Source of the DNA: a virus
Length of the DNA stretch: 23,384 bases
Virus record (IMG/VR): IMGVR_UViG_3300032323_000407
Coordinates: 1 to 23,384 of that record
Reading direction: 5' to 3' (one strand)
Shown here piece by piece: positions 13,363 through 22,870 of this stretch; position 1 is the stretch's first letter, and each line of letters opens with the position of its first letter. A program made the translations under genes and the position numbers. The notes beneath the pieces were generated by a model. That model was not told where the DNA came from. It saw nothing but the letters and a program-made list of their open reading frames with translations, and searched no databases.

Positions 13363-14323
13363 TGACCTGAGACCAAAGCCTAAGTGGGATTTGATCCAAC
13401 CCGCAAAACCTGTTTACATAAACGCTCCCAAAGAGCCTCGCAAGACCAAATCGCGCCATAAGGTTTGGTCAGTGCTGCCAGATCCTCAGATCGGCTATCG
13501 TCATGTTGACGGCAAGTGGCTGCCATTCCATGATGAAGCTGCAATGGATGTAGCTCTACAAATTACTAACTGGCTTTATTACAACGACCGTGTCGATGGT
13601 GTGATCAATTTAGGAGACTTCCTAGATCTACCAAGTCAGGGTCGTTTTGAACAAGAGGCAGCTTTCGCTGGCACTACTCAAGCAGCATTTGATAGAGGCC
13701 ATAAGTTCTTACAGGAGCAGCGTGCTGCAATTGGTCCTGATGCTGAGATAGTTTTGATCGAAGGCAACCATGATCGCCGCATGGAGAAGTTCATAATGAT
13801 CAATGCTGCAAGCGCATGGGGATTGAAGCGAGCAAACATTGATGAGCTTCCGGTAATGAGCATCCCTTATCTTTTGAGACTTGATGAAATTGGAGTTGAA
13901 TACATTGATGCCTACCCCGCCGGAGCCTACTGGCTTACCGATAACCTCAGAGCCATCCATGGAAACAAAGTTAGGTCAGGCGGATCTACCGCTGCAGCCT
14001 ACACAAACGCAGATCCACACATCTCAACCATTTTTGGACATGTCCACAGACAAGAACTTCAGTCCAAGACAACCTTTAACCGTGACGGATCTATTAAGTC
14101 AGTCGCAGTCAGTCCGGGATGCTTATGCCGAGTTGATGGAGCGGTCCCTAGTGTTAATGGATCTACACACATCGATGGAACATCTGCTAGATACTACGAG
14201 AACTGGCAACAGGGAATCACAGTAGTCACCCTCGAAGGCGACAAGCCATTCTTTGAATTAGTGCAGATCAATGATGGCGTGGCTTACTTCCGTGGCCAGA
14301 AGTTTACTTCTAAGAAGTCCTAG
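13355..14323 (+). CDS. Calcineurin-like metallophosphoesterase
   Basis: Two-metal phosphoesterase; substrate unknown, but phage members are thought to act on nucleic acid or nucleotide phosphates. All family motifs are present (numbering from this start): D43-x-Q (LPDPQIG), G87-D88 (NLGDFLD), G137-N-H-D140 (IEGNHDR), H202 (AIHG), G228-H-V-H231 (FGHVH). Length about 322 residues. The start is uncertain: GTG at 13355 gives an 8-base overlap with the upstream stop (GTGCTTGA), ATG at 13313 or GTG at 13298 would add 14 or 19 residues lying wholly inside the HTH gene and have no ribosome site. The first 35 residues before the enzyme domain are Pro/Lys-rich. Its stop overlaps the stop of the opposing NrdH gene by 3 bases or so, with no terminator between. 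Confidence 0.87.
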   Translation: MLDDLRPKPKWDLIQPAKPVYINAPKEPRKTKSRHKVWSVLPDPQIGYRHVDGKWLPFHDEAAMDVALQITNWLYYNDRVDGVINLGDFLDLPSQGRFEQEAAFAGTTQAAFDRGHKFLQEQRAAIGPDAEIVLIEGNHDRRMEKFIMINAASAWGLKRANIDELPVMSIPYLLRLDEIGVEYIDAYPAGAYWLTDNLRAIHGNKVRSGGSTAAAYTNADPHISTIFGHVHRQELQSKTTFNRDGSIKSVAVSPGCLCRVDGAVPSVNGSTHIDGTSARYYENWQQGITVVTLEGDKPFFELVQINDGVAYFRGQKFTSKKS

Positions 14324-14562
14324 ACGCCTTCAGGCTTAGGTAGCTTTAGGCCATTGATCATTTCCATTCGGAAACCGCTCCAATGGGTGCTGCCATTTAC
14401 GATAATTGGCGCAGCAGTGTAACCAAGCTCCTTGACGTACTCAACGGCAGCTTCGTCTTTGCTCATGTCAATCTCTTCATACTCAATCCCTAATCGGTTC
14501 ATCAGGCGCTTGCTGGTGTCGCACTGGACACAGGATGGGAGGGTATAAATGACTACTGACAT
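14320..14562 (-). CDS. nrdH: NrdH-like glutaredoxin
   Basis: 80-residue thioredoxin-fold protein. The active site is C11-V-Q-C14, the sequence typical of NrdH, the hydrogen donor of class Ib ribonucleotide reductase in Actinobacteria and others. Further NrdH marks are TAAPIIV with the cis-Pro, and HWSGFRMEMINGL at the end. In the cell it would keep a ribonucleotide reductase reduced for dNTP supply. No reductase subunit gene (nrdE/F) is seen in the window, so it may serve a host enzyme or one encoded elsewhere in the phage. AAGGA stands 6 bases before the ATG, 8 bases after the HNH gene stop. It is the last gene of the leftward early operon. Confidence 0.88.
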   Translation of the reverse strand: MSVVIYTLPSCVQCDTSKRLMNRLGIEYEEIDMSKDEAAVEYVKELGYTAAPIIVNGSTHWSGFRMEMINGLKLPKPEGV

Positions 14563-18414: not shown

Positions 18415-19176
18415 TCAGATCATCGACTCAACGTCTGAATGATCCGTCTCATCATAGCGACGACAGCTAAAGCAAAAACTTGCCTTAGGTTGCTTCTCTA
18501 TGACCTTGTCCCATCCGACTAGCTCAGCAGCATCGATCATTGATTCAAGTACTGCAAGCGATTCGAGTGCGACTTGAGCATCGTAGCGGAGCATTACCAC
18601 CACTGCGTTCTCAAGCTTGTCCTCCCTTGGTAGGAAGGTCAAGGATACGTGGCTAACGTTGTAGCCCTTTTGCGCCCAACCATAGCCGTACAGCATTGCT
18701 TGGATGCGGTATTGATCCTTGATTTTGCCCTTGCGAGCATCCTCAAGAGCTGTCTTGCCAACAACCTTCCAATCGTTGACAACACCGTTCCATCCGTTGT
18801 TGCCAGTAAAGGCAAACATGTCGCATGATCCGGTAAGTTTCAAATCTTTGTACTCGTGTACGAATAGGCGCTCTTCAAGTTTGTAGTCCATTGTGTAGCG
18901 CGAATTGAAACCGTCTTCAAGTGCGTTGTGCACTGCGGTTCCAATGAATGGATACCATGCGCCGTCAATGTTTCTTGGAGTCTTAGCGAGCTTGCGTGCG
19001 ATGCATTTGCGGCAGTCCATGCCGACCTCGCTGATGCCAATTTCAATTTGCTTAGATCGCTCAGTGACGAATAGCTCTGGGATCCTGGCCATCCATGTTT
19101 GCGCAGCAGCTACTGCAATGTTATCGGCCTGGTTGTATTCACTAATCTCAGTCTGGTGAATTTTGATCGTTGCCAT
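18415..19176 (-). CDS. PD-(D/E)XK nuclease, Cas4/RecB-like, with four Cys
   Basis: 253 residues. RecB-family nuclease motifs in order: GTAVHNALE (H83, E87), TGSCDMF (D119), VVNDWKVV with D135-x-K137, and QAMLYGYG (Q159, Y163). Two CxxC pairs flank this core: C55/C58 (MDCRKCIA) and C235/C238 (FCFSCRRY). In Cas4 and AddB, Cys around the nuclease core bind a 4Fe-4S cluster, usually one before and three after; here the split is two and two, so a cluster or a zinc site is possible. It would be a DNA exonuclease acting with the SNF2-like helicase encoded just upstream (29-base overlap) and the SSB-like protein downstream, in recombination or host DNA breakdown. GAGGAG is 4 bases before the ATG. No CRISPR array is present. 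Confidence 0.82.
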   Translation of the reverse strand: MATIKIHQTEISEYNQADNIAVAAAQTWMARIPELFVTERSKQIEIGISEVGMDCRKCIARKLAKTPRNIDGAWYPFIGTAVHNALEDGFNSRYTMDYKLEERLFVHEYKDLKLTGSCDMFAFTGNNGWNGVVNDWKVVGKTALEDARKGKIKDQYRIQAMLYGYGWAQKGYNVSHVSLTFLPREDKLENAVVVMLRYDAQVALESLAVLESMIDAAELVGWDKVIEKQPKASFCFSCRRYDETDHSDVESMI

Positions 19177-20665
19177 TTGTCTCCTCGTCTATGCGCCCAG
19201 TCAAATGCTGGACGACCTTGCGGCTAAAGTCTACGCCTCTTGCGCCATCTAGGAGAGATCGGGTAGTTAGTCGGCGTGTCGTTGACACTTCTGCAATGGC
19301 CATGTCAATTGTGTGCCTTGATAGCAAGTGCCAGATAGATACCTTGTGCATGTTTGACGCACGGTGAATGCGGTCCTCGATCTGCTCCAGCTTGTCAGGG
19401 TCATAGGGTAGGTCAAGCATGATCAGGTCATCAGCGGTGTCAAGGGTAATGCCAACACCCATGCTGCCGGATAATAATACAACCCTCAGCGGGTCATTAG
19501 GATCCTGAAACCTATTCTGTACATCAGCACGTTGCGATGCAGATAGATCACCAGTGAGCAGCTCAGCATTGATGCCGTGCTTAGCTAACTGATCCTTGAA
19601 CCATTTGAGAGTCTTGACGTACTGTGATGCGAGCACCACCTTGCCGTTTAGTCCTAGGTCCTCCATGTAGCCACGCTCAGCCATCCATTCAAGCAACCAG
19701 TCAAGCTTGCTAGAGTGCGACCCTGCATAAGTAGCCAGCTGCCGTGCAATGGTGCTAAACACAAGTAGCGCAGTGGGCTGTGGATCCGCCATGGCTAGCC
19801 GTTCTGCCTCTTTGTATGCCTCGCGCTGATCTTTATTCATTAGTAGTTCGATGAAGTGATAAGACTTAGCTGGCAGCTCTGGCAGTACTTCTTCTTTGGT
19901 GCGGCGAATGATAAGCGATCTATCTAGCTCTGCCCAGTCATAAGGATTCTTCAGTGAGCCAACCTTCTTGACCGTGCGAGTGCGAGAAACCTTCTGATCA
20001 TAGACATTGAACTTATCTTGCAGCCATGACCAGTGCGACTTGCCGACTTGCGATGGAGCCATGAATTTCCAAGTGCCGTATCGGTACTCAAGCTTGCCTC
20101 GATCAGGTGTGCCGGAGATAGCGATGCGCATCGATTGCTTTGAGTCATGTACCTTTAGCTTGTCCAAGCCGCGCCAGAAGTTTGTCTTGTTGTTAGGTTT
20201 TACAACTGGCAGTACAAGGTGTGATTCATCAATGGCAATGGCTGACCAGTAAGGCTCAAACAGTGCCGGGACTCTAGATCCTTTAGCCGTCGTTGCCAAA
20301 GCGTCGTGGTTTGCGACGACGATAATTGGATAGGTCCCATTTTCTGAGAGGACCGAAGACAGAACCTTGTTCTTCTTTTCTGCGCCGCCTGATGATAGGT
20401 CCACTACTTTTAGGCTCGGGTATCTCGGTATAACGAACCTCTCGATCGTGTCGATCCAAGCGGTCCTGGCATTCACTACAGGTGTGAGAATCAGCATCGC
20501 GTGGCTGTCCATCGGGTTGTACAGATCCGCGAGCTCGAAGCTGGTCAAGACTTCTAAAGTTTTGCCAAGCCCAGGTTGATCTGCCAATAAAATAGACCGT
20601 TGGGATGCTATCTTCTTCGCTGCCTCCCTCTGGTATGGGTAAAGTATCTCCTCGTAAATTGTCAT
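19148..20665 (-). CDS. SNF2-type DEAD/DEAH helicase
   Basis: 505 residues from the ATG at 20665. It has the two RecA-like domains of SF2 enzymes: Q-like YPYQREA (9-15), Walker A DQPGLGKT (29-36), motif II DESH (146-149), motif III SGTP (184-187), then in the second half GKVVLASQYVKT, LSGSMGVGITL (motif V) and QIEDRIHRAS (motif VI). This set matches compact phage and bacterial SNF2-like helicases with no accessory domain; role in replication, recombination or remodelling of bound proteins. A start 7 codons upstream (20686) exists, but AGGAGAGG lies between the two, 10 bases before 20665. Most of the N-terminal 127 codons are also open in the frame of the preceding gene (20283-20855). The stop lies 29 bases inside the nuclease gene. 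Confidence 0.9.
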   Translation of the reverse strand: MTIYEEILYPYQREAAKKIASQRSILLADQPGLGKTLEVLTSFELADLYNPMDSHAMLILTPVVNARTAWIDTIERFVIPRYPSLKVVDLSSGGAEKKNKVLSSVLSENGTYPIIVVANHDALATTAKGSRVPALFEPYWSAIAIDESHLVLPVVKPNNKTNFWRGLDKLKVHDSKQSMRIAISGTPDRGKLEYRYGTWKFMAPSQVGKSHWSWLQDKFNVYDQKVSRTRTVKKVGSLKNPYDWAELDRSLIIRRTKEEVLPELPAKSYHFIELLMNKDQREAYKEAERLAMADPQPTALLVFSTIARQLATYAGSHSSKLDWLLEWMAERGYMEDLGLNGKVVLASQYVKTLKWFKDQLAKHGINAELLTGDLSASQRADVQNRFQDPNDPLRVVLLSGSMGVGITLDTADDLIMLDLPYDPDKLEQIEDRIHRASNMHKVSIWHLLSRHTIDMAIAEVSTTRRLTTRSLLDGARGVDFSRKVVQHLTGRIDEETNGNDQNSPD

Positions 20666-20855
20666 CTGGCTCAAGCCTCTCCTCATAGGCGAATGCGATC
20701 TGCATCGCTAGTTCTGTAATTGTTGATTTGAAATCACGCCATGTCATGTTGTCATCAGCGTTGTAAAGCTCGTTGTCTAAGAATTCAACTGCATCGTTGA
20801 GTCCCTCGATCCAAGCATTGAATCCCTCTTCATCTGAATAGTATCTCTGTATCAT
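20283..20855 (-). CDS. Acidic small protein running out of frame into the helicase gene
   Basis: The start is well supported: ATG shares ATGA with the WhiB stop, the same coupling as along the whole chain. Residues 1-63 (MIQRYYSDEEGFNAWIEGLN, later MTWRDFKSTITELAMQIAF) are acidic and helical, have no other gene on top of them and look like genuine protein. No stop occurs before the helicase start at 20665, and the frame stays open for 127 more codons, to 190 residues. That part has a different look: Arg- and Pro-rich (IIRRRRKEEQGSVFGPLRKW, YRRRKPRRFG), with a lone CSEC. It may be a real overlapping extension or simply the shadow of helicase codons read after loss of an older stop. A frameshift joining it to the helicase is another option, but the helicase has its own ribosome site and full N-terminus. 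Function unknown. Confidence 0.55.
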   Translation of the reverse strand: MIQRYYSDEEGFNAWIEGLNDAVEFLDNELYNADDNMTWRDFKSTITELAMQIAFAYEERLEPDDNLRGDTLPIPEGGSEEDSIPTVYFIGRSTWAWQNFRSLDQLRARGSVQPDGQPRDADSHTCSECQDRLDRHDREVRYTEIPEPKSSGPIIRRRRKEEQGSVFGPLRKWDLSNYRRRKPRRFGNDG

Positions 20856-21145
20856 TTCTTACTCCAAATCACTTTTCTATCGTTAGGTGTTGTACCGCCC
20901 CAGATGCCGTACTCTTCTTTGTGCTTGATCGCATAGATCTTGCACTGATTGACAACCTCGCAGCTATTACAAGCCTGCTTAGCCATCTTGGCGATCGATG
21001 CTGCCATGCCATCTCCAACTTCTGGGAAGTAAAGATCCGGTGCTTGGCGACATGGTATCTGACCTGCCATTGCATCAATTTGGTCGTTTAGTTCAAACCA
21101 ATCTCGTAGTCGTTCGTATGAATCAAAGGGCCTCCTGGCTCCCAT
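20852..21145 (-). CDS. whiB: WhiB-family iron-sulfur transcription regulator
   Basis: 97 residues with the full WhiB signature: four cluster Cys C32, C59, C62 and C68 (PCRQAPDLYF; ACNSCEVVNQC), then the G-I-W-G-G turn (80-84), followed by TTPNDRK, the basic end. WhiB proteins bind a 4Fe-4S cluster and act on the primary sigma factor or DNA; they occur in Actinobacteria and their phages. Mycobacteriophage TM4 carries one that inhibits host WhiB2 and blocks superinfection. Here it could redirect host transcription early; that is inference. The start at 21145 is chosen because AGAGG lies 6 bases before it and because the longer frame from 21247 adds 34 residues of atypical sequence inside the zinc-ribbon gene. 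It overlaps that gene by 23 bases and the next by ATGA. Confidence 0.93.
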   Translation of the reverse strand: MGARRPFDSYERLRDWFELNDQIDAMAGQIPCRQAPDLYFPEVGDGMAASIAKMAKQACNSCEVVNQCKIYAIKHKEEYGIWGGTTPNDRKVIWSKK

Positions 21146-21329
21146 TGTTATCCTCTTCTTGTAGCCATAGGTAGTAGTCGTCGGGTAAATGTTCTTCTGG
21201 CTTGGCATAGTAGCCATGCTCAGTGATGGCACAGAATGTACAGACAACTCTGTTGCCGGTGATCACTGTGTCGCTTGAATCAACAACACGATCACATGAG
21301 AAGCATAACCATTTGGAATTCTTAGTCAT
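21123..21329 (-). CDS. Small zinc-ribbon protein
   Basis: 68 residues with two CxxC pairs, C9/C12 (WLCFSCDR) and C30/C33 (VVCTFCAI), spaced as in a zinc ribbon, then an acidic end (PEEHLPDDYYLWLQEEDN). Part of the chain of tiny coupled genes: its ATG overlaps the upstream stop by 8 bases (ATGACTAA) and its end overlaps WhiB by 23 bases. Function not recognised. A metal-binding adaptor that touches nucleic acid or the host transcription machinery would fit the fold. Confidence 0.75.
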   Translation of the reverse strand: MTKNSKWLCFSCDRVVDSSDTVITGNRVVCTFCAITEHGYYAKPEEHLPDDYYLWLQEEDNNGSQEAL

Positions 21330-21498
21330 CTAGCAAGCTCTCTTTGTAGCCGTCATAGTCTGCATCGCAGTGGCATGATCCGTTGCATGATGCGCAGGTG
21401 TCATCTTCATAGCCGATGATGCCGTAGTTGCATTCCCCAGCATCAGTGCAGTCTTCCATAGTGTCGCCGCATCCCGAGCAGATTAGTTCGTCATTCAC
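21322..21498 (-). CDS. Tiny Cys-rich protein with GTG start
   Basis: 58 residues, below the usual size cut. AAGGAG stands 7 bases before the GTG, a strong ribosome site. Eight Cys: C7 and C10 (LICSGC), C16, C23, then C35, C38, C42 and C44 (DDTCASCNGSCHC), an acidic protein with room for two metal sites. It overlaps the preceding tiny gene by 8 bases (GTGAATGA) and the next by 8 (ATGACTAA), the same architecture as its neighbours. Function unknown. Codon frame and coupling make chance unlikely. Confidence 0.75.
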   Translation of the reverse strand: MNDELICSGCGDTMEDCTDAGECNYGIIGYEDDTCASCNGSCHCDADYDGYKESLLDD

Positions 21499-21652
21499 CT
21501 TCGTTCTCCTTTTCTCTCAAGCGATCATACTCAGCATCAGCTAAGCAGGTGCACTGACTGATTCGTTTGCCACACTTCTGGCAAGGTGATAGGTAGATGT
21601 CATCTACATAACGCATTGATCCAGCGCTCTCTTGGATCCAAACATAGGTCAT
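21491..21652 (-). CDS. Tiny zinc-binding protein
   Basis: 53 residues. After an N-terminal MTYVWIQESAGSMRYVDD comes a metal-site pattern C24-x2-C27 (SPCQKCGK) and C34-x-C36 (SQCTCLA), then a charged helix (EYDRLREKEN). The ATG shares ATGA with the stop of the gene before, and its stop overlaps the GTG of the next by 8 bases. Too short for standard gene calls but consistent with the coupled chain. Function unknown. Confidence 0.7.
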   Translation of the reverse strand: MTYVWIQESAGSMRYVDDIYLSPCQKCGKRISQCTCLADAEYDRLREKENEGE

Positions 21653-21867
21653 AGTACTTCTTCGATTCTTCTAATTAGATCTTCTTTAGTAATTGCGATG
21701 GTGCCTCCATCAGGTGCGTAAACACCGATGTATGTATCAGATAGCATCTCGCGCAGCGCTGCACTGGTGCGAGACTGAGTCTCATGTGTGCCAGCGTTGT
21801 AGCCTTGGTTGAATGATCTGATGCTGTTATCTACGATGATCTCTTGTAGCTGTGTTGTTGCACTCAT
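21649..21867 (-). CDS. Small protein of unknown function in the coupled chain
   Basis: 72 residues from the ATG at 21867, chosen because GGGAGG stands 6 bases before it; an in-frame ATG at 21882 lies upstream of that ribosome site. The sequence (TTQLQEIIVDNSIRSFNQGY, SRTSAALREMLSDTYIGVY, then ITKEDLIRRIEEVL) is helical with no Cys, unlike its neighbours. Start and end both use ATGA overlaps. No family recognised. Confidence 0.68.
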   Translation of the reverse strand: MSATTQLQEIIVDNSIRSFNQGYNAGTHETQSRTSAALREMLSDTYIGVYAPDGGTIAITKEDLIRRIEEVL

Positions 21868-22097
21868 TTTCGGTCCTCCCATGGATCGTATTTTTTAGCC
21901 GGGTAATCTTCAGCAGTGAAGCCGATTGCTCTGTCTAAATCACCTGGCATACCGTGTGTTGCTTGGATGTCTTTTTCTGGTGGTACGCAGATGTGTTTCT
22001 TGCGCCACGATGTAATCGATGCGAGCGCGTTAGAGAGAGGTGCGTCCGTTATTTCCATCTCAGCACCGCAACTACACCTCTCCCTAACACTTGGCAT
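21864..22097 (-). CDS. Small Cys-containing protein
   Basis: 77 residues beginning MPSVRERCSCGAEMEI, with C8, C10 and later H35/C37 (KKHICVPP) as a possible zinc site, then a C-terminal half ending in PAKKYDPWEDRK. Short proteins with an E-R-C-x-C-G-A start and a W-x(2-4)-H-x-C later are common in actinophage early regions; function unknown. Its ATG overlaps the upstream TAA by one base (TAATG), and the stop shares ATGA with the next gene. Confidence 0.7.
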   Translation of the reverse strand: MPSVRERCSCGAEMEITDAPLSNALASITSWRKKHICVPPEKDIQATHGMPGDLDRAIGFTAEDYPAKKYDPWEDRK

Positions 22098-22468
22098 TAG
22101 TGAACTGTCAATCTCGATTTGCTGGTCGCCTTGTAAAGCTCAGGGTACTCAACAATAGGGAATGTCTCTTTTACTTTGTCGGTGATAAGGCTCTGCTCAC
22201 GCCATCTAGCGATGCTCGCAACCTTAGCGCCGTGAATCTGTAGTTCATCGTTGTTGCCGATCATGTCCTTGATGATCGCATCGATCTCTGCTAGCTCTGC
22301 TTCGAGACGCTTTTTAGCATCGTAAACCGAGCTGCGCTTAGCAAGTAGTTCATTGGCCAGTAATGGATCTGTTGGCTCAACTACTTTTGTTTTGCTCTTT
22401 GATTCTTTTGGCTTGCTAACTAACTTGGCCTTAGCCGCATCGATTAGTTCTCGCTCTGTAGTGTTCAT
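22097..22468 (-). CDS. Coiled-coil phage protein, unknown function
   Basis: 123 residues. Lys/Ser-rich N-terminus (about 1-32), then a coiled-coil helix (LLAKRSSVYDAKKRLEAELA, on through EIDAIIKDMIGNNDEL), then a beta segment VASIARWREQSLITDK and YPELYKATSKSRLTVH. The helix, G/N-x-D/E-x-L turn, K/A-x-W-R strand and ...ELYK...S-R-x... end resemble the C-terminal part of YqaJ-like phage exonucleases and free-standing relatives; this is a weak likeness. GAGGAG is 4 bases before the ATG. It begins the chain of overlapping genes that ends at the nuclease near 18415. Confidence 0.7.
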   Translation of the reverse strand: MNTTERELIDAAKAKLVSKPKESKSKTKVVEPTDPLLANELLAKRSSVYDAKKRLEAELAEIDAIIKDMIGNNDELQIHGAKVASIARWREQSLITDKVKETFPIVEYPELYKATSKSRLTVH

Positions 22469-22832: not shown

Positions 22833-22870
22833 AAGTAGTCCCTGTCATTGATGGCAGGGACTACTTTTTT
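22833..22870 (+). terminator. 12-bp perfect hairpin, terminator-like only on the plus strand
   Basis: AAGTAGTCCCTG (22833-22844) and CAGGGACTACTT (22855-22866) pair without mismatch across a 10-base loop, and six T follow on the plus strand (22865-22870). No plus-strand gene lies upstream in reach. For the minus-strand genes it falls between one stop (22869-22871) and the next ribosome site, with no T run after it, so there it would be an intergenic mRNA hairpin. Confidence 0.6.

Follow-up and report, generated by a model that had tools for sequence, protein, structure and literature searches.

Between a recombination-exonuclease homologue and a SNF2-type helicase gene, an uncultured phage carries a cassette of tiny genes that is real, conserved and variable. 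It belongs to a type already known from the early regions of phages, as cultured actinophages show the same habit, and its members fall mostly into unnamed families. As read from sequence, the cassette consists of accessory genes within a DNA recombination/replication operon, lodged between the first gene of the chain (g1) and the helicase gene.

The window analysed here is the whole virus contig IMGVR_UViG_3300032323_000407 (23,384 bases), which carries genes for a terminase, a portal-like protein, proteins of the tail region, a primase (D5_N), a helicase and an exonuclease. The source is an uncultured tailed phage, probably of an actinobacterium. The actinobacterial host is suggested by the WhiB marker and by the actinophage relatives of the terminase and the helicase, the terminase being 43-44% identical to those of Arthrobacter phages such as Jasmine. 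The same phage that encodes WhiB and the Cys-rich proteins also has a glutaredoxin gene (14320-14562, minus strand; Pfam E 5e-13).

The gene chain and its recombination setting

Seven minus-strand open reading frames follow one another from 22468 to 20852, overlapping stop to start by exactly 1, 4, 4, 8, 8 and 23 nt, as a preliminary description of this DNA had reported, and the start codons chosen for the chain agree with those of homologues. Five of the seven products are Cys-rich, again as described, with three Cys in g2, eight in g5 and four each in g4, g6 and WhiB. Together they contain 23 Cys in 353 aa (6.5%), compared with 0.40-0.50% across the proteins called in four relatives. However, the chain does not end in WhiB, as had been stated. 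It continues downstream with g8 (20283-20855, minus; 190 aa), which starts 4 nt inside whiB and extends 383 nt into the helicase gene, then with the SNF2-type helicase gene itself (g9, 19148-20665, minus; Pfam SNF2-rel_dom E 3e-22, Helicase_C E 8e-15), the constant right border of the cassette, and with a Cas4/RecB-like exonuclease gene (g10, 18415-19176, minus; phrog_1674 exonuclease E 2e-42) that overlaps the helicase gene by 29 nt. PADLOC hits to the helicase were rejected, as the matches represent generic SNF2 similarity.

The constant left border, g1 (22097-22468, minus; 123 aa), is a separate gene for a homologue of the RecE/YqaJ-type exonuclease C-terminal domain. It matches residues 238-351 of the 372 in phrog_434, a RecE-like recombination exonuclease (E 3e-6), which corresponds to the C-terminal third, and its homologues in two relatives, L022 and L121, match the same region (E 7e-7 and 3e-6). 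A complete YqaJ exonuclease from another relative, L053, matches phrog_434 too (E 4e-63). Identity of g1 to its relatives is 80-88%. There is no nuclease domain on the g1 chain, the separate exonuclease gene being the one downstream. We infer that g1 is an accessory domain that has become detached from a recombination exonuclease, so that the cassette would belong to a recombination module.

The genes of the cassette are intact and, wherever selection is measurable, it is purifying. Nei-Gojobori dN/dS ratios are 0.10 for g1, 0.15 for g2, 0.16 for g4, 0.20 for g5 and 0.13 for whiB, and 0.43 for g3 in a single pair; synonymous sites are saturated in g6 and in x4, an accessory mini-gene of some relatives. 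Neither the Cys content nor the conservation nor the fixed location can be put down to chance. That these very short frames, with few matches to named families, are open by chance or result from misassembly has practically no probability left, being already refuted by intact homologues on many independent contigs, by dN/dS ratios of 0.10-0.43 and by invariant ligands.

Tight packing alone is unremarkable. In four relatives, 42-60% of same-strand neighbours overlap or lie no more than 5 nt apart (19/45 to 34/57), percentages that are approximate since the rough caller used missed most tiny Cys genes. Equal dosage, which had been proposed from the packing, is unsupported and does not follow from it, because overlap is ordinary in these genomes and most genes have ribosome sites of their own. 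In the window, g3, g5, g6, whiB, g8 and the helicase gene each have a Shine-Dalgarno sequence (-4.1 to -10.2 kcal/mol) and g4 has none (-1.4 kcal/mol); only the step out of g1 is consistently without one. In the window and nine relatives covering all four clades, the end of g1 reads T(A/G)ATG and lacks a strong Shine-Dalgarno sequence, whichever gene comes next (-2.7 kcal/mol in the window, 0.4 to -3.1 kcal/mol in the relatives). Promoter-like sites were in no excess over shuffles, and an Rfam search returned nothing. A hairpin with a 15-bp stem lies at 22833-22866, in the gap between a 171-aa and a 99-aa gene; its end is about 5 nt short of a strong ribosome site, and on the plus strand it looks like a terminator. 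In L008, another relative, the equivalent place holds a hairpin with another sequence.

Membership of the cassette across relatives

IMG/VR was scanned with the helicase, WhiB, g2, g4, g5 and g6, and about 17 distinct contigs span the full interval from g1 to the helicase gene. In clade A (the window and L001-L008; helicases 79-80% identical), the order is g1-g2-(x)-g4-(x)-g5-g6-(x)-whiB-g8-helicase wherever the full interval is present. Clade B (L022-L031, L165) has g1-(g3)-g4-(x)-g5-whiB-helicase, without g2, g6 and g8. In clade C (L033, L034, L041), g1 and g2 are followed by g4 with an extra 4-Cys half, a 31-aa CxxC..CxxC protein and the helicase; no WhiB was found within these records of 46.0, 43.4 and 26.8 kb, respectively, which may be fragments. 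Clade D (L120/L121) harbors g1, five genes of its own including those for three 4-Cys mini-proteins, whiB, g8 and the helicase gene, and L171 presents a further variant of the interval. Overall, 3-9 tiny genes lie between g1 and the helicase gene, mostly encoding four- or eight-Cys proteins, and WhiB is present in three of the four clades.

Members have been gained, lost, fused and swapped, and the stop-to-start overlap persists. The mini-gene x4 illustrates this mobility, as it lies before whiB in L001 and L002, upstream of g5 in L029, and is fused ahead of g5 in L008, where x4 and g5 share a single open frame (2147-2428). From these clade-by-clade gene lists and the moves of x4, the slot is constant, the order mostly kept and the membership dependent on the clade. 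Related phages with the genes scattered in random order, or with frames broken by stops, had been named as evidence that would speak against the chain. Order is instead kept where genes co-occur, x4 excepted, and none of the frames in relatives is interrupted. The expected co-occurrence in other phages holds in about 17 relatives for the type of locus and the order, but not for the chain as a unit, as its members are separable: three relatives have g2 and g4 but no WhiB that could be found in their records, and both genes are found elsewhere in other phages.

Several of these other settings can be described. Clade F (L042-L111) carries g2 homologues, and most of the loci examined have an opposite-strand WhiB about 2 kb away. 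At L053, the single clade-F locus fully inspected, a YqaJ exonuclease (Pfam YqaJ E 5e-17) is followed by a candidate recombinase, a coiled-coil-like gene and g2; we take the second of these genes to be a recombinase, its PHROG matches being only of unknown function. In L135 and L136, the g4 homologue adjoins a gene that by eye resembles an Xre-type regulator. Small CxxC proteins also occur at other places in these genomes. In the L138 region, about ten near-identical 52-aa Cys-rich frames are repeated in tandem, one roughly every 159 nt (contig G001, 32218-34209, plus strand), possibly a reverse reading of a repetitive tail-fibre gene.

No named family was found for g2-g6 in Pfam, PHROGs, NCBIfam or PADLOC searches. 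Mini-proteins of the g2, g4, g5 and g6 types probably bind zinc, judging from their ligand patterns, and in the g2, g4 and g6 alignments the ligand positions rank among the most conserved residues. The best sampled is g2 (21864-22097, minus; 77 aa), for which the IMG/VR scan gave 121 matches, 80 of them kept, with 56 distinct sequences among those examined. Its pattern had been given as C-x-C...C, in which the Cys are correct but the site is incomplete. The site is C-x-C...W-x3-H-x-C (C-x-C-x24-H-x-C in the window), and C8, C10, H35 and C37 are all invariant in a 35-sequence alignment. AlphaFold2 models residues 1-40 as a beta-hairpin followed by a helix (pLDDT 81-86 by block; 51-68 for the remainder). 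A fold search of this model against the PDB gave no match at E<=0.001, and no g2 was found in bacterial genomes. The next gene, g3 (21649-21867, minus; 72 aa), has no Cys and is a replaceable member: a homologue occupies the same position in L007 and clade B and is missing from most of clade A.

Relatives of g4 (21491-21652, minus; 53 aa) are 60-76% identical. Its CxxC...CxC pattern becomes CxxC...C-P-K-H in some relatives (L005, L007, L022), where a nearby His takes the place of the fourth ligand Cys, a swap expected for a zinc site. The two 4-Cys halves of g5 (21322-21498, minus; 58 aa; GTG start) are reduced to one in L002, L003 and L008, which lack the second. A g5-like CASCNGxCxCDxxYD stretch ends g4 in L033, L034 and L041, and a g4-like stretch lies within g5 in L007 (E 8e-5); profile comparison of g4 with g5 was not significant (probability 2%). 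Finally, g6 (21123-21329, minus; 68 aa) is a zinc-finger-like protein whose four Cys are invariant in seven sequences and which, in the viral scan, was seen only at the g1-helicase locus. It matches the CRP1 LIM finger weakly by profile (E 5e-4), and its C-x2-C-x17-C-x2-C arrangement has, in alignment, the spacing of the DksA/TraR finger. Membership of the DksA/TraR family was rejected: neither Pfam (E<=1) nor NCBIfam (E<=0.1) gave a hit to the family, and the N-terminal helix with two conserved Asp is absent, just 8 residues preceding the first Cys.

The WhiB protein, g7 (20852-21145, minus; 97 aa), is by sequence a true WhiB-like (Wbl) regulator. It matches Pfam Whib (E 1.4e-15, 58 bits; cut-off 23.6) and, by profile, WhiB1 in the PDB (E 1e-12). 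The four Cys (C32, C59, C62 and C68, with a CxxC-x5-C core) and the GIWGG form of the G[VI]WGG turn are invariant in seven sequences. Identity to WhiB proteins of cultured phages is about 32-40% among the best matches listed. Cellular Wbl proteins such as WhiB1 and WhiB7 dock on the primary sigma factor.

The g8 frame inside the helicase gene

The most surprising thing near the cassette is the overlap of g8 with the helicase gene. This gene is present in the window, in L001-L008 and in L120/L121, and combines a helical N-terminal part of about 63 aa with about 127 codons read off-frame within the helicase gene. In all nine g8-bearing sequences examined (the window, L001, L002, L003, L005, L006, L007, L008 and L121, with L003 and L006 near-identical), the frame runs through 353-380 nt of the helicase gene without meeting a stop. 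By contrast, it is interrupted by 4-12 stops before nt 350 in eleven helicases that lack g8. For each of eight sequences, shuffling codons while preserving the helicase protein reaches the observed open length in no more than 0.24% of trials. Where a T-ending codon would create a stop, none is observed, against 4.7-7.1 expected per sequence, and such codons are near-normal elsewhere.

The g8 frame is kept open, and its amino-acid sequence is not detectably kept. Within the overlap, the helicase gene shows no reduction in synonymous divergence, and the amino acids of the g8 frame change as rapidly as those of control stretches. Because of this lack of synonymous-site constraint, the tail of g8 is not claimed as a conserved protein; AlphaFold2 predicts it to be disordered (pLDDT 31-46). 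With relatives devoid of g8 as a built-in control, the overlap offers a clean case in which to ask why a long frame stays open while its amino acids drift.

Possible roles of the cassette

Similar clusters of small genes are known from several other phages. The best precedent found for the mini-proteins is in lambda, where seven small ORFs lie between exo and xis, among them Orf73, a TraR/DksA homologue with a CxxC-x17-CxxC motif; it binds RNA polymerase, inhibits it and increases phage yield (PMC9239242). The likeness lies in small, functionally obscure ORFs near recombination genes and in the four-Cys spacing that Orf73 shares with g6. However, g6 has no Pfam DksA/TraR match and carries its finger N-terminally with no helix ahead, and lambda has no WhiB. 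The host takeover module of Bacillus phage SPO1 consists mostly of small early genes, several of them growth-inhibitory; it is likened here by description, as 26 genes in a 12.4-kb terminal region, and the consulted portion of that account presents no WhiB or zinc theme (PMC6873191). The mycobacteriophage TM4 protein gp49 (WhiBTM4) belongs to the same Wbl family as g7, and is reported to lower whiB2 expression and to block septation (cited in PMC10202952, PMC13148394). Screens of mycobacteriophage genes found small proteins and some WhiB proteins to be toxic (PMC11075535, PMC13148394). The same habit is seen in cultured Gordonia and Mycobacterium phages, in which tiny CxxC genes neighbour a WhiB or a helicase gene (Squiddly gp70-71, Lambo gp57-58, Patio gp76, SirPhilip gp50-54); as in the cassette, they overlap or are close-spaced and encode 2-4 spaced Cys. 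Against 50,697 phage records, g1, g2 and the clade-F g2 had no match, and g6 had one weak match, in a Staphylococcus phage (E 0.02).

Modulation of the host is the first-ranked reading, ahead of accessory roles in DNA metabolism and of a slot of unrelated genes, and is held tentatively, at a little under an even chance. The points counted for it are the comparison of loci, purifying selection, the invariant ligands, the Shine-Dalgarno pattern, the homology of WhiB to Wbl structures in the PDB and the phage precedents; counted against it are the recombination/replication neighbours, which fit a role in DNA metabolism equally well, the negative fold search with g2, and clade C, which retains part of the cassette and in whose records no WhiB was found. 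Under host modulation, the cassette products would be made early, alongside the recombination enzymes, if early timing is assumed, and, if they indeed contain zinc, would be small proteins folded around metal that bind host or phage protein targets. WhiB, like its cellular Wbl counterparts, would most likely dock on the primary sigma factor of the host and shift host transcription. The zinc mini-proteins would most likely each have a single target on RNA polymerase or the replication machinery, like lambda Orf73, and each protein would act singly and not in a fixed-ratio complex. The earlier suggestion of host takeover via RNA polymerase is plausible by analogy with phage WhiB proteins and lambda Orf73.

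The main rival is an accessory role in recombination and replication, which we consider somewhat unlikely. The tiny proteins would be accessory subunits of the phage machinery (the exonuclease, the detached C-terminal domain g1, the SNF2 helicase, the primase and others), serving as zinc-dependent DNA or protein clips, with WhiB alone being regulatory. Such a role accords with the position of the cassette between g1 and the helicase gene in every relative that has both, and with the clade-F locus in which g2 lies downstream of the YqaJ exonuclease and the probable recombinase gene. Yet the enzymes are constant and the turnover of members is high, as is more typical of dispensable accessory genes, and clade B retains all the enzymes without g2, g6 and g8. 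Alternatively, the members may have no common role, an insertion-tolerant slot of the early region having gathered unrelated small genes whose Cys serve the stability of proteins shorter than 80 aa. This is unlikely. In its favour, overlap is common genome-wide, and small CxxC proteins occur elsewhere in these genomes and next to WhiB or helicase genes in cultured phages of Gordonia and Mycobacterium. Against it, co-occurring members keep their order, they are under purifying selection, and the slot repeatedly holds unrelated 4-Cys mini-proteins in four clades.

Going beyond host modulation, the slot could be a site dedicated to exchange, where actinophages take up combinatorial sets of zinc mini-proteins against host RNA polymerase together with WhiB, with the g8 frame being selected for the act of translation or for a disordered tail, and not for its amino acids; this combined proposal is unlikely. 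The slot between g1 and the helicase gene is in any case a definable source of new families of tiny, probably zinc-binding actinophage proteins, which can be tested for host targets.
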